The position numbers and the translations under genes were made by a program. Of a stretch of DNA of 35,429 bases, positions 17,235 through 26,339 are shown piece after piece. The DNA comes from Candidatus Nitrosopumilus sp. (GTDB taxonomy: Archaea; Thermoproteota; Nitrososphaeria; Nitrososphaerales; Nitrosopumilaceae), in the NCBI GenBank assembly GCA_013043295.1, contig JABDOO010000018.1:1-35429 (forward strand). Reading direction: 5' to 3'. The notes beneath the pieces were generated by a model. The model did not search any database and was not told the origin of the DNA. It was given only the letters and a program-made list of their open reading frames with translations. Every line of letters begins with the position of its first letter. Position 1 is the stretch's first letter.

Positions 17235-18680
17235 ATGAATAAGGAACTGTCCTTTGCTCTTAATTATGCATTAAACAAGGGTTTCCAGATTCACCCTGAT
17301 GCGTTTAAGATTTTAGAAAACGTAGATGTAAAAAAGTTAGAGAAGATAATAAAGGAAATAGTAAGAGAGAAAACAAAACAGAAGTTATTTCAGATTAATC
17401 AAGATGATTTAGAAAGTTATCTTGGAATTAAGGAGGATTCTACGTTACAAAATGAAGTGAAGGTATTATCAGATCCTACAACAAAGATAACATCTGGAGA
17501 AGGAGTAAAAGGATACAATGCCCTATTTTCAAGCCGTTTTAACAAACTTAAACGAATAGTCTCAGATAGACCAGAATCAAAATTATTAAAATCTGCAGCC
17601 TCAGTCAAAAATGCAAAAATTGATGATGATTTGTATGTGTGTGGATTAGTCACAGTAAGGAATTCAGAGAGAAATGTTACAAAATTGGTTCTTGAAGATC
17701 CATCAGGTTCCTTTGAGGGGATAATTTTTGATGAGGAGCTGCAGAAAAGTGCCGGGACTCTTCTAATTGATCAATTTGTAATGGCAAGAATAAGTTCAGC
17801 TAAAAACTCTGGGTATATTATCAAAGATTTAATTCTGCCAGATATTCCTGAGCAGGCAAAGAACAGATCTGAAAGTGAGGCATACGCAGTTTTTCTATCA
17901 GATTTGCATATTGGGAGTAAATACTTCATGGAAGATGAATTCTCAGAATTTGTATCTTGGATTTCAAGTCCTGATCCTGTTGCAAGAAAGATTCGTTTTG
18001 TCCTAATAGGTGGAGATGTGGTAGATGGGGTTGGGATATATCCAAATCAGAATAAGGAATTGGTTTGCCAGACAATTCAAGAGCAATTAAAAAAAGCAGA
18101 AGATTTACTTGATAAAATTCCTAAAAATGTGAAAATTATCATAATGCCTGGTAACCATGATCCAGGTAGAAGAGCATTACCACAACCGGCAATTCCCAAA
18201 AAATACAACTCTAGTCTTTGGGAAAGAGAAAACGTGATAATGGTTGGAAACCCAGCAGTAATTTCATTAAATGGGGTAATAGTTTCAATGTTTCACGGTC
18301 AAAGTATTGATGATATAGTCAAAACCACACCGGGTCTAAGTTATGATCATCCTGCCGATGTAATGAAACATCTACTTCGTGCAAGACATCTAAGTCCAAT
18401 TTATGGTAGTCAAACTCCTATAGCACCAGAAATGGAAGATTTGTTAGTAATTCAGGACATACCTGACATTTTTCATGTGGGTCATGTTCATAGAGCCCAA
18501 TTGGACTTGTATAAGGGAATTTTATTGGTAAATTCAGGTTCATGGCAAAAACAGACGCCTTTTCAAGCTAGTGTAGGTATGACGCCAAACCCAGGAATTG
18601 CAATATTGGTAAATCTAAAAACATTACAAGTCTACCATCAAAATTATAGTTCTAATTTAGATAATGTCTTGCAGAGTTAG
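17235..18680 (+). CDS. polB: DNA polymerase II (PolD) small subunit DP1
   Basis: OB-like region 'YVCGLVTVRNSERNVTKLVLEDPSGSFEGIIF' and Mre11-like phosphoesterase 'LSDLHIGSKYF', 'GGDVVDGVGIYPNQ', 'MPGNHDPGRRALPQPAIP', 'HVGHVHRAQ'. Confidence 0.95.
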   Translation: MNKELSFALNYALNKGFQIHPDAFKILENVDVKKLEKIIKEIVREKTKQKLFQINQDDLESYLGIKEDSTLQNEVKVLSDPTTKITSGEGVKGYNALFSSRFNKLKRIVSDRPESKLLKSAASVKNAKIDDDLYVCGLVTVRNSERNVTKLVLEDPSGSFEGIIFDEELQKSAGTLLIDQFVMARISSAKNSGYIIKDLILPDIPEQAKNRSESEAYAVFLSDLHIGSKYFMEDEFSEFVSWISSPDPVARKIRFVLIGGDVVDGVGIYPNQNKELVCQTIQEQLKKAEDLLDKIPKNVKIIIMPGNHDPGRRALPQPAIPKKYNSSLWERENVIMVGNPAVISLNGVIVSMFHGQSIDDIVKTTPGLSYDHPADVMKHLLRARHLSPIYGSQTPIAPEMEDLLVIQDIPDIFHVGHVHRAQLDLYKGILLVNSGSWQKQTPFQASVGMTPNPGIAILVNLKTLQVYHQNYSSNLDNVLQS

Positions 18681-19859
18681 ATCATCACCAAATGTTTTTT
18701 TAATCATTTCTGAAGAAATTGTCAGTTTGTATTTTTTTGTCCTACCATGAATTCCTTGATGAATTAGTCTTCCTGAGATTAATCCAGACAATTCAATTTC
18801 ACTTAGCATTTGTGTGATTCTTCTTTGGGTAAGCTCGTCTTTCCCAACTGCCTTGCAGAGATTTTTGTATGAAGAGTATATTTCTCCGGTAGAGGAGCCG
18901 TTTGCCTTCATAATGGCAATTAGGATGAGTTTTTCATGAAGAGGGAATGATTTGAGGGATTTTTCTTCTTTGTTTTCTTCCATTTTTTGAGAGGCCTCTC
19001 TGACATGTTCAATTGTAACTTTTTCAGATTGTTGTCTCTCTGCAAGTTCTCCAGCCACTCTAAGCAGATCAATTGCTCTTCGAGCATCCCCATGTTCCCC
19101 GCCTGCTAGGGCAGCAATTAGATTTAGGGCAGGATCTTCAACTGAATTTTCAATAAATGATTCTTGGATTCTTTCTTCTAGAATTTTTTTAATTTGTTCA
19201 ACATTGTAATTTGTAAAGACAATTTCCTCTTCTCCTAAACTACTGATTACTCTAGGGTCTAGTTTTTCTTTGAAAGTTAAGTCGTTTGAAATTCCTACTA
19301 AAGTAAGGGAGCCTTGTGTCAGACGTTCATTTGCCCTAGTAAGTTGGTATAGAATGTCTTTGCCTGTTTTTGCGACTAGTTGCGCAAGATAGTCTATTTC
19401 ATCTATAACAAAAACTGCGTTGAGTTTACCTTCTTCAATTTTGTTTAGTAGTCTTTTGAATACTTCGCTTATTGCTAGCCCAGTTGTGGGTAATTCCTTC
19501 TCTTTTAGGTCTAATTGCCTGCCTAAACTGACCAATAATCCATATAATGTGGTCTCTTCTTTAGAATTTGAATAAATGAGTTTGATTGGGAAATTTGATT
19601 TCTCAACTCTCTCTTGGATTTTAGAGAGCACTTTTTTCACTACTAATGTTTTACCTGTTCCAGGCTTACCATATACTAGGAGATTTGAAGGTCTTGATTT
19701 TTTTAAAATTGGTAATAATGATTGGGTGACTTGTTCTTGTTCATTTTTTCTATGTAATATGATATTTGGAATATATGAATAATGAAGTATATCACGATTT
19801 TTTATTATTGATTTTCCAGACTCTGCAGCATCTAACAAATCATCAATTGGATCAGACAT
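18657..19859 (-). CDS. cdc6: Orc1/Cdc6 replication initiator
   Basis: Walker A 'YGKPGTGKT', Walker B 'VFVIDEIDYL', sensor region 'LVGISNDLTFKEKLDPRVISSLGEEEIVF', 'GGEHGDARRAIDLLRVAGE', C-terminal winged helix. Start placed at ATG 19859 (MSDPIDDLLDAAESGKSI); track start 19907 looks over-extended. Confidence 0.95.
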   Translation of the reverse strand: MSDPIDDLLDAAESGKSIIKNRDILHYSYIPNIILHRKNEQEQVTQSLLPILKKSRPSNLLVYGKPGTGKTLVVKKVLSKIQERVEKSNFPIKLIYSNSKEETTLYGLLVSLGRQLDLKEKELPTTGLAISEVFKRLLNKIEEGKLNAVFVIDEIDYLAQLVAKTGKDILYQLTRANERLTQGSLTLVGISNDLTFKEKLDPRVISSLGEEEIVFTNYNVEQIKKILEERIQESFIENSVEDPALNLIAALAGGEHGDARRAIDLLRVAGELAERQQSEKVTIEHVREASQKMEENKEEKSLKSFPLHEKLILIAIMKANGSSTGEIYSSYKNLCKAVGKDELTQRRITQMLSEIELSGLISGRLIHQGIHGRTKKYKLTISSEMIKKTFGDDLTLQDII

Positions 19860-20108
19860 ACTCACACACCTTTGTTTCCTATCAACACTAACACAACCAT
19901 ATCTCAATTAAGAGAGTATAGAATAGAATAGTAATAGTAGTTTAGTTTGTAATTAATTATTTTTAGTTAGTTTTAGATTTCTTTTTAAAAAAAATTAAAG
20001 AAAAAAATAGAGTGGAAATATTGGTGTGTGGGTTGAATCCTAAATTAGGTATGGATTAACAATAATGTTAATGAAGTGTTAAGAAAATTCCCAAAAAGCC
20101 TATTTTGA

Positions 20109-20130
20109 CCCCTTTATTTCCATTCCAAGC
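20109..20130 (-). repeat. ORB-like repeat copy 1
   Basis: CCCCTTTATTTCCATTCCAAGC; 19/22 identical to copy 2. Confidence 0.75.
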
Positions 20131-20170
20131 GTTAAGAAAGGTGTTAACATTGTGAACATCTCGAAAACAA

Positions 20171-20192
20171 CCCCCTTATTTCCACTCCAGGC
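20171..20192 (-). repeat. ORB-like repeat copy 2
   Basis: CCCCCTTATTTCCACTCCAGGC; reverse complement GCCTGGAGTGGAAATAAGGGGG resembles the archaeal ORB core (AGTGGAAAC plus G-string). Confidence 0.75.
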
Positions 20193-20351
20193 ACAAATAT
20201 ATCTAAATTAAAGGGCTTTAAACAAAAAACACTGTTAATAACAAAAATTAGGCTAGGCGTGGGCTAGGCAGTCAATGTTAACAAACCACTTTGTTAACAA
20301 ATATTCTGGGATCATTTGAACTGTTAACATTCGATCCTTTAGATCTCAAAG

Positions 20352-20738
20352 ATGACTAAAAAACACATTCGAATTGGTATGGAAGACGCTGATGGTGCCA
20401 AATATGATATTAAATTGGAAGGTAATGTAACCAGAGATAAAGTTCTTAAAATATTTGAAATGATGGATTTGATGAATATTGAAGAGGAACAAGAACCAAT
20501 TAACATGGATTCTGCAGGTTCAAAAATTTGGAATATAATTGACAAATTCTTCCCAATGGGCAAATTTACCTCTACAAACATACTTGAAAAATATGAGGAT
20601 GAATATAACGAGCCTGTGAAATTAAGTATAATTTCCACTTATTTGTCACGATTTGCTGTAAAAGGTAGGGTAAATAGAACTAGAAATGGCAGAGAATGGA
20701 CTTATCAAACCATCAAAATTCCCCAAAAACAACAATAA
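20352..20738 (+). CDS. Hypothetical protein, possible C-terminal winged-helix DNA-binding domain, next to the putative origin
   Basis: 128 aa; 'KFTSTNILEKYEDEYNEPVKLSIISTYLSRFAVKGRVNRTRNGREWTYQTIKI' resembles a wHTH recognition helix plus wing. Confidence 0.75.
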   Translation: MTKKHIRIGMEDADGAKYDIKLEGNVTRDKVLKIFEMMDLMNIEEEQEPINMDSAGSKIWNIIDKFFPMGKFTSTNILEKYEDEYNEPVKLSIISTYLSRFAVKGRVNRTRNGREWTYQTIKIPQKQQ

Positions 20739-22961: not shown

Positions 22962-25900
22962 ATGTCTGAAAATGATGCAATTTCTCGAATTCGTGATATC
23001 AAGATGCCAAATTACTATCTTGATTATTATTCCAATCTATCAACTGAGACATATTCAATATTTCAACATGCAGCATTGGCAAAATCTACTTTAGCAGATT
23101 CTTCAGGCATAATTGAGCCTAAAATTGCATTTGACCTGGCAGATAGAGTTGCAAAAATGCACGAGATTGACATTGCAGATCCACTCAGGGAAATACTAAA
23201 AATCAATGGAAAGGAACTCTCTGCTCTTATTTTAGCAAAAGAGATTGCGCAGGGGAAATATTGTCTTCCAGATGCTACACTTGAAGACAAATTAGATCTT
23301 GCAGTTCGTGTAGGCTTAGCAATAATTACTGAGGGTGTTACTATTGCACCATTACAAGGAATTAGTGAAGTAAAAATTAAGAAAAATAAAGATGGAACTG
23401 AATACCTATCAGTTTCGATTGCAGGACCAATGCGTTCAGCAGGAGGTACAGAATCTGCAGTAACTCTACTAATTGCTGATCATGTTAGAAAAATAGCAGG
23501 ATTATCTAAATTTCAAGCAAATTCCTTTGATGATGAAACAGGTAGATTTGTTGAGGAATTACGAATTTATGAAAGAGAAGCAAGCAGCTTCCAATTCCAT
23601 ATCTTAGATGAAGACATTGAACATGTGATTTCTAATCTACCAGTTGAATTAGCAGGAGTAGATACTGATCCTTACGAAGTAGTTAACCACAAATCTATGA
23701 CTCGAATTCAAACTGACCGAGTTAGAGGTGGGGCTTTACGTGTCTTAAATGATGGATTGATTGGAAGATCCAAAAAATTACTCAAAAGAATTGAATTGTA
23801 CAATTTAGATGGTTGGGAATGGCTCAATGATTTGAAAGGAGCTGTTCAAACTGGTGATAGCCAAGAAGACGCAGCTGCAAAAAGAATGCGTGAAGTAATT
23901 ACAGGCAGATCTGTATTGTCAATGCCTAACACATTAGGCGGATTTCGTTTAAGATATGGAAGATCATGTAATACAGGTTTTGCAGCAGTAGGGATTCATC
24001 CAGTAATTGCTGAAATTCTCGATCACACAATAGCTGTAGGTACTCAAATCAAGATAGATATTCCAGGAAAAGGTGCAACCGTAGCATTTGTAGATTCTAT
24101 TGATACTCCAACAGTCCGTCTTACCAATGGCAGTGTCGTAAAAATACGTGATGTAAAACATGGATTAGAAATTAAAAATCAAATAGAAAAAATTTTACAT
24201 TTGGGAGATATTTTAATTTCATTTGGAGACTTTTTAGAAAATAATGCCCAATTAGTTCCATCAGGTTATGTAGAAGAATTTTGGATTGAAGAATTAAAAC
24301 AAAATATTCAAAAATATGAGCCTGATGATCAATACCTTAATCAATTTTTGAATAGGACGCCAACAATAGATGAAGCATTAAAAATCTCACTTGATTTTAA
24401 AATCCCATTACATCCACATTACTTGTATTTCTGGGATAAAATTTCTGCTGAAGAACTGAGTAATCTTTTAGAACCAAACAAAGTCAATGAGACTTCTATT
24501 GAATATCCAAACAAAGTCAAAAAGATTCTTGAAAATTTAGGAACTCCCCATAAAGTAGAAAATGAAACATTGATTTTAGAACATCTTGAAGCAAAAATTT
24601 TCTTTAATTTATTATTTAGAACCAAACCAATCATTGATGATTTATCAGTTCCAAAAATTTTATCGAAATCATCAGGAATCAAAATAAATAATAAATTTTC
24701 AACTAGTATAGGAGTTAGAATAGGAAGACCAGAAAAAGCAGCCCCAAGACAAATGAAACCTGCAACACATGTGTTATTCCCAATTGGTGAGAAGGGCGGA
24801 CCTACAAGAGACCTTCTAAAAGCCTCTAGAACTGAGCACTTTTTTGCTAATCTTTTCAACAGGCAGTGTACAAAATGCAACCAACCCTCAATAGGCATAA
24901 AATGTTCTATATGCGGCACCAAGACCTCTATTTCCTACAGATGTTCTAATTGTAGAGATACACTAACAGAGCCATTTTGTGAAAAATGCAAACGCAAAGC
25001 TCCTGCTCATTCACACCAAACATTTCCTTTGAAAAAGAGATTGCTATTAGCTCAAGAGAAGATGGGACTTCGAGCAAAAGAACCCTTCAAAGGAGTTAAA
25101 GAACTTATTAATCAAGATAAAATTGCTGAACCTCTAGAAAAAGGACTTGTCAGACAAAACTTTGGATTAACAACTTTCAAAGATGGAACAGTAAGATTTG
25201 ATGCAACAAATTCTCCATTAACACAATTCAAACCATCTTGGATAGGAACATCTATTGAAAAATTAAAAGAACTTGGTTACTCTCATGATATTGATGGAAA
25301 TCCTCTCATTTCTGTTGAACAGACAATTGAACTTCGAATGCAAGATGTAATTATTCCATATGAAAGTGGAAAATATCTAGTTTCTATTTGTAAATACATT
25401 GATGTTCTTTTAGAGAAATTCTACGGGAAGACTTCATTTTATAATGTAAAAAATTCTGAAGAACTAATTGGGCATTTAATTATTGGTCTGGCTCCTCATA
25501 CATCTGTAGGGATAGTTGGACGAATTATAGGATATACTGAAACACATGTTTGTTTTGGAACTCCTAATTGGCATTCAGCCAAAAGACGAGATGCTGATGG
25601 TGATGCTGATTCAATAATGCTACTGATGGATAGTCTTCTAAACTTTTCAAGACAATTCCTTTCTGACAGAATTGGTGGTTTAATGGATGCACCATTATTA
25701 ATCCAACCACATGTTTTACCTCACGAGTCCCAACCCCAAGCGCATAATCTTGAAGTCACAAAAATTCTTCCATTAGAATTCTTTGAATCTACATTCCAAC
25801 AAATTAAATCCTCAGATATTTCATCAATTGAAATTATTAAATCACGTCTTGAAACCGAAAGACAGTTCTATGATTATCACTTTACACATTCAACATCATC

Positions 25901-26339
25901 ACTAACTACTTCTAAATCAAGAAGCGCATATTCTACGCTTGGTTCTATGCTTGATAAATTTGATATGCAAGTTAGAAATGCTGAATTAATCAACGCTGTA
26001 AACACTTCAGAAATTGTTTCAAATGTAATTTCCACTCATCTTGTACCTGATTTGATGGGAAATCTAAGAGCATATGCAAGGCAGAGCTTTAGGTGCACAG
26101 CATGTGGAAAATCATTTCGTAGAATGCCTCTTATTCAAACTTGTGTATGTGGGCATAAACTGATTGCCACAATTACTAGGGGGTCTGTAGAAAAATATCT
26201 TAAACTTGCAAAAAGATTAGTCGAAAAATATGATGTTGGTGAATACCAAAGGGGAAGAATACATGCTCTATCAGATGAAATCGAATTAGTTTTCGGAAAG
26301 AGTCAAGGGGATCAATCACTACTTACTGATTATGCGTAA
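22962..26339 (+). CDS. polC: DNA polymerase II (PolD) large subunit DP2
   Basis: '[27 protein letters not shown]', '[26 protein letters not shown]', zinc-binding cysteine clusters, '[50 protein letters not shown]'. Confidence 0.96.
   Translation: [1125 protein letters not shown]

Follow-up and report, generated by a model that had tools for sequence, protein, structure and literature searches.

The 492 bp region at positions 19860-20351 of the window (the whole stretch of 35,429 nucleotides analysed here, contig 121 of a 1.17-Mb, 160-contig metagenome-assembled genome, in a genus with Nitrosopumilus as its named relatives) is very probably the chromosomal replication origin of this marine ammonia-oxidizing archaeon, as is expected for the genus. 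Alongside its origin recognition boxes (ORBs) we identified a second array, composed of GTTAA boxes, and this array, together with the small winged-helix protein paired with it (here termed nb), is a real and conserved component of many Thermoproteota origins that apparently has not been described before. The region is intergenic and adjoins the orc1/cdc6 initiator gene, which occupies 18660-19859 on the minus strand and encodes 400 aa. The first-pass annotation had correctly located a gap beside cdc6, but had put its size at ∼440 bp; as the conserved cdc6 start is an ATG at 19859 and not the TTG at 19907, the gap measures 492 bp. The gene to its left is a bona fide orc1/cdc6: the product contains the Pfam domains Cdc6_lid and Cdc6_C, belongs to the orc1/cdc6 family TIGR02928 and matches the Orc1 structures of S. 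solfataricus and A. pernix (2qby and 2v1u) with E-values of about 1e-81. It is the single Cdc6 seen in this fragmented genome; many other Nitrosopumilaceae genomes contain at least one additional paralogue (about 30 % identical, e.g. G034:C1:326836-327978), possibly on integrated elements.

The common archaeal ORB motif, TCCA[CG]T[TG]GAAA[TC][GA]AAGGGGT (Ori-Finder 2/DoriC, PMC4164010), was used to scan the window at a threshold of ≥ 15/20 matching positions. Exactly four matches were found in the 35 kb, all of them within the cdc6 gap. Two, ORB2 (20108-20130) and ORB3 (20170-20192), lie on the minus strand with starts 62 bp apart, and contain the two 22-mers that had been proposed as ORB-like repeats with a G-string; these are indeed present at 20109-20130 and 20171-20192, are identical at 19/22 positions and each match the published motif at 17/20, G-string included, whilst many relatives reach 20/20. 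When the gap was dinucleotide-shuffled 500 times, neither a 19/22 pair nor two ORB matches of ≥ 17/20 appeared. ORB1 (20008-20027, plus strand, 15/20) is conserved genus-wide and corresponds to the partial copy GAGTGGAAATA noted earlier at 20010-20020, in the orientation opposite to the 22-mers. The fourth element, ORB0 (19866-19885, minus strand, 15/20), was absent from the first-pass list; it has the core GGAAACAAAGGTGTGTG, lies immediately upstream of the cdc6 start and includes ACTCACACACCTTTGTTTCC, which is strongly conserved in the genus alignment. ORB0 and ORB1 differ from the common motif and form a divergent subtype, GGAAAY...GGTGTGTG; the pattern GGAAA[CT]...GGTGT occurs at only two sites in the 1.69-Mb genome of the relative G098, namely ORB0 and ORB1.

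To describe the anatomy of the region we used an alignment of 86 distinct Nitrosopumilaceae gaps, in which the conserved blocks are ORB0 at the cdc6 start, an A/T-rich tract, ORB1, ORB2, ORB3 and the series of GTTAA boxes. In each of the 74 genus loci that were measured, ORB2 and ORB3 are spaced 61-62 bp apart. The A/T-rich tract (19910-20009) suggested previously as the unwinding element is real, being 84 % A+T over the genus alignment, strongly conserved at 19905-19975 and the part of the gap with the lowest duplex stability; its candidate role is supported by the inverted arrangement of ORB0 and ORB1 around it. This support is qualified in that ORB1 and ORB2 face each other too, over 80 bp that contain three GTTAA boxes at about helical spacing. 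The A/T tract sits between ORB0 and ORB1 rather than between ORB1 and ORB2.

A search with a 23-mer spanning the ORBs, allowing ≤ 3 mismatches, returned exactly two copies per genome in 13 of 13 genomes, all beside cdc6 and 61-62 bp apart, whilst the reversed control pattern gave zero matches in the same 13 genomes. Likewise, in G098, a complete relative of 1,690,905 bp with a Cdc6 95 % identical to that of the window, ORB motif matches of ≥ 17/20 number two in the entire genome, and these are ORB2 and ORB3. The ORBs are thus concentrated at the cdc6 locus and not scattered. Nucleotide skew was taken from G098 because the window's own assembly is a metagenome-assembled genome in so many contigs; local skew within the 35-kb window gave no clear signal. 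In G098 the cumulative GC skew reaches its maximum at 564 bp from the ORBs; its minimum is 828 kb away from them, near the antipode (845 kb). For GC, AT, purine and keto skews alike, the chromosome is best halved at about 0.77 and 1.62 Mb. We regard this as good but imperfect evidence, as the GC amplitude is modest (P 0.058 against shuffled blocks) and the cumulative AT and RY maxima fall about 200 kb off the origin, even though their best half-split is at the origin. Third-position strand skew is unequal between co-directional and head-on genes of G098, indicating that the asymmetry is not merely one of gene orientation. The GC/AT values (L112-L196) are -0.016/-0.030 for co-directional and +0.078/+0.153 for head-on genes; the leading strand is relatively rich in C and T at third codon positions, and the origin consequently coincides with the maximum of cumulative GC skew instead of its minimum. 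Confinement of the ORBs to this locus and the skew inflection in G098 together support the candidate origin beside orc1/cdc6 that had been put forward from the sequence.

That origins in this phylum are poorly characterized, as was supposed in the same annotation, does not hold for N. maritimus. Passages of PMC4010727, PMC4588119 and PMC5333045 that cite Pelve et al. (2013) describe one origin per chromosome in this species, mapped in vivo by marker frequency, and PMC5797428 mentions ORB repeats adjoining cdc6 there. The present locus resembles that origin, from the same genus, in being probably a single chromosomal origin with ORB repeats beside cdc6; as a single origin has already been mapped there, the origin itself is not new.

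The second array, by comparison, had been overlooked. The gap contains 13 GTTAA boxes where 2.9 are expected from shuffles, and four TGTTAACA palindromes where 0.03 are expected. Three boxes lie 10-11 bp apart between ORB1 and ORB2 (20056-20082; 20056 on the minus strand, 20066 and 20077 on the plus strand). A second group (20131-20158) comprises GTTAAG at 20131, TGTTAACA at 20142-20149 and a G-type box, TGTGAACA, at 20151-20158, and a third (20233-20329) consists of TGTTAATAACA at 20233-20243 followed by TGTTAACA at 20276, 20292 and 20322, with fixed spacings of 43, 16 and 30 bp. Altogether the boxes cover almost 300 bp, interleaved with the ORBs at fixed spacing, and reach into the divergent promoter region, the last one lying about 20 bp from the nb start. 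Across 91 loci, box-to-box distances of 11, 12, 43, 16 and 30 bp recur, 11 bp being the commonest and the 43/16/30 series being found in nearly all. Half-sites lacking the palindrome are conserved equally in the genus alignment.

In the G098 gap, GTTAA is the most enriched 5-mer (16 copies against 1.03 expected, P 3e-14); fifteen copies fall within 400 bp at the origin, whilst every other 400-bp stretch holds ≤ 7, making this the strongest such cluster in that genome. We rejected the notion of TGTTAACA as an abundant genome-wide site, as only 40 copies exist in the 1.69 Mb of G098, 3 of them at the origin. Every complete gap of the Nitrosopumilus group contains 9 to 18 GTTAA copies. Practically all the Nitrosopumilaceae origins that were checked carry the array, and so do other families of the class, even where G+C reaches 49 %. 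TGTGAA replaces TGTTAA as the enriched box in families f4, f6, f7, f8, f10 and f12; the same holds for such divergent loci as were examined beyond the class. A literature search of open-access papers returned no description of TGTTAACA boxes or a TGTTAA/TGTGAA array at archaeal origins, nor of nb.

The gene for nb (20352-20738, plus strand) is divergent from cdc6 and specifies a protein of 128 aa, which, along with its winged-helix fold, went unremarked in the first-pass annotation. AlphaFold places a winged helix-turn-helix at residues 55-120 (pLDDT 80-95 by block). Foldseek matched winged helices generally, MecI among them, with a probability of 1.0 but E-values of about 0.01, and TubR was one of the weak matches. 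The Penicillinase_R profile (PF03965) matches 18 of 35 nb members (best E-value 1.1e-7); as the window protein itself scores below the curated cut-offs (18.1 vs 22.6 bits for PF03965 and 18.8 vs 121.95 for TIGR02698), we refer to nb as BlaI-like and not as a member of the family. A sequence search of the PDB with nb gave nothing better than an E-value of 0.01, and a search of PHROGs gave no match. The C-terminal winged helix is what nb shares with the BlaI/MecI/CopY repressors (PF03965, TIGR02698); it differs from them in its N-terminal part, in the lack of any antibiotic or copper context, and in its linkage to cdc6 and ORBs. BlaI and CopY bind palindromes of TACA/TGTA half-sites, which makes TGT-type half-sites plausible for nb.

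Of 201 genomes belonging to the class, 181 contain nb, as do 192 of the 301 genomes in a phylum-wide sample. A divergent arrangement with cdc6, across an ORB-containing gap of about 0.5-0.85 kb, is common, and the gene pair is conserved beyond the class. Twelve genomes without nb were tested for cdc6, and in ten of these the main-type cdc6 was also missing; in the other two the sequence ends 115-154 bp beyond cdc6, so that nb may simply be unassembled. Neither nb nor the main-type cdc6 was found in any sampled member of two genera (G222 and G232 in f7, g35; G150, G153 and G156 in f15, g57), possibly reflecting joint loss or a changed mode of initiation.

Rearranged families bear on the question of which gene the boxes belong to. 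Where nb has been displaced by 3-60 kb (f2, f24 and f43), the boxes stay upstream of cdc6 and the nb promoter has only 0-3 of them; in the four genomes of f20, the ORB and GTGAA boxes lie beside nb and neither is beside cdc6; and in f29 boxes are present at both genes. It follows that the boxes move together with the ORBs, and this identifies them as a component of the origin rather than an operator for one gene. The displaced-nb families largely eliminate the idea that the boxes are solely nb's own operators. A broader version, in which the locus is an origin but the boxes serve as nb repressor operators for divergent transcription of cdc6 and nb, with no direct role in initiation, we judge to be unlikely. 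BlaI-type proteins are usually transcriptional repressors, which counts against an origin role for nb, and both the BlaI/MecI/CopY-like character of nb and the position of the boxes in the divergent promoter region would suit such operators. Opposed to this are the near absence of boxes at the displaced nb promoters, the f20 boxes that accompany the ORB beside nb instead of the displaced cdc6, and the extent of the array, with its ORB-interleaved layout and fixed spacing. Control by the boxes of cdc6 alone is possible in most families.

Returning to an array that acts at the origin, its most plausible reader is encoded next door. Residue 93 of nb falls in the helix predicted to be the recognition helix (H91-103), and its identity agrees with the type of box at 79 of the 81 loci called: TGTTAA goes with I, V, L, M or A, and TGTGAA with Thr. 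The two exceptions are L278 (f13), with Thr and TGTTAA, and L318 (f4), with Met and TGTGAA. We derived this rule from 55 loci before applying it to others; the additional f4 loci with a divergent pair were all of the GTGAA type, with L318 as the one exception in the residue, and divergent loci outside the class fit the rule. Two of 128 columns in nb separate the box types (residue 93 and residue 114 in the wing), compared with none of 400 in Cdc6. On this comparison of sequences, nb is probably the reader of the GTTAA boxes, and we lean, with less assurance, towards its being directly involved in replication.

The box type changed only two or three times on the Cdc6 tree, and with so few independent switches a formal phylogenetic covariation test has no power. 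As such, the correlation with nb might instead be one of shared ancestry, the boxes being bound by some other factor, such as a UBP-like nucleoid protein or a GTTAAC DNA methyltransferase. The small number of joint switches, the palindromic nature of GTTAAC and the precedent of UBP on the Sulfolobus element ucm (PMC12141716) would all fit; nevertheless, we consider this improbable, given that Cdc6 shares the same ancestry, yet none of its columns distinguishes the box types, that the further f4 loci and those outside the class obey the residue rule with one exception, that half-sites lacking the palindrome are just as conserved, and that nb and the main-type cdc6 go missing together.

Distinctly less probable is an origin-proximal centromere, in which nb would be a winged-helix centromere-binding protein for chromosome segregation, comparable with TubR on iterons or with AspA. 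Arrayed short sites and a small winged-helix protein near the origin do resemble partition sites, TubR appears among the Foldseek matches and AspA is a winged-helix partition protein (PMC5120986); those matches, however, are to winged helices in general, and no motor gene of the ParA, SegA or TubZ type was recognized among the ten neighbouring genes scanned. Finally, it is hardly credible that the gap is no origin and only a conserved divergent promoter at which Cdc6 regulates its own gene: ORB0 abuts the cdc6 start codon and autoregulation by Cdc6 is plausible, but the skew extremum of G098 falls within 564 bp, a single in vivo origin is known in N. maritimus (PMC4010727, PMC5333045), and in f20 the ORB lies next to an nb that has no cdc6 beside it.

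We accordingly return to a single oriC with four ORBs bound by Orc1/Cdc6 and a separate GTTAA array bound by nb and acting at the origin, a model that, taken whole, we hold to be likely. We infer that Orc1/Cdc6 from the adjacent gene would bind ORB0 and ORB1, which bracket the A/T tract in inverted orientation, as well as ORB2 and ORB3, a 62-bp direct pair facing ORB1; Orc1 at these sites would load MCM, and the tract would presumably be where the duplex opens. The GTTAA array, made up of half-sites and TGTTAACA palindromes that lie partly among the ORBs and partly downstream of them, would form a separate origin element to which nb could bind, most likely as dimers, and by which it may organize the origin or regulate its firing beside Orc1/Cdc6. 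More tentatively, and at rather less than even confidence, one may envisage a second origin-recognition system that spans the phylum, in which many Thermoproteota lineages would have a cdc6-paired winged-helix protein that reads TGTKAA arrays at their Orc1 origins and serves beside Orc1/Cdc6 as a co-initiator or as a factor controlling the origin, a change in its recognition helix having switched its specificity from TGTGAA to TGTTAA.

What is known of archaeal origins beyond a few models is mostly their ORBs and A/T tract. If correct, an origin-clustered array and one small uncharacterized protein over much of the phylum would point to an ancient factor acting at the origins of a major archaeal lineage, and a concrete test is on offer in the form of one 128-aa protein, one 8-bp site and one predicted specificity residue. 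Furthermore, the ORB0/ORB1 subtype and the fixed spacings define a thaumarchaeal origin sufficiently to attempt a minimal plasmid that replicates in ammonia-oxidizing archaea, a group in which no established genetic tools are known to us.

By analogy, the nearest precedent for the second array is Sulfolobus ucm and its protein UBP. The Sulfolobus oriC1 (Orc1-1/ORB2-DUE-ORB3; PMC12141716) likewise has inverted ORBs around an A/T-rich region beside an initiator gene, and ucm is a short non-ORB element on which the activity of the origin depends and to which the small protein UBP binds (PMC12141716). The likeness lies in an extra short element for a small non-initiator protein, which here would be nb, whose binding we infer. 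The two systems differ in that ucm is a single 11-bp site inside the DUE and UBP also binds hundreds of genome sites (PMC12141716), whereas here about 13 boxes are concentrated at the origin and the winged-helix candidate is encoded next door; GTTAA is repeated and, in G098, clustered at the origin only, and in this respect the element does not correspond to ucm/UBP.

Two further features of the locus were recorded. The DNA polymerase D subunits DP1 and DP2 are encoded at 17235-18680 and 22962-26339, on both sides of the origin and within 4 kb of it. In addition, CTAGGC is directly repeated at a distance of 12 bp within the origin gap, at 20252-20269 (CTAGGCGTGGGCTAGGCA), and this repeat is conserved.
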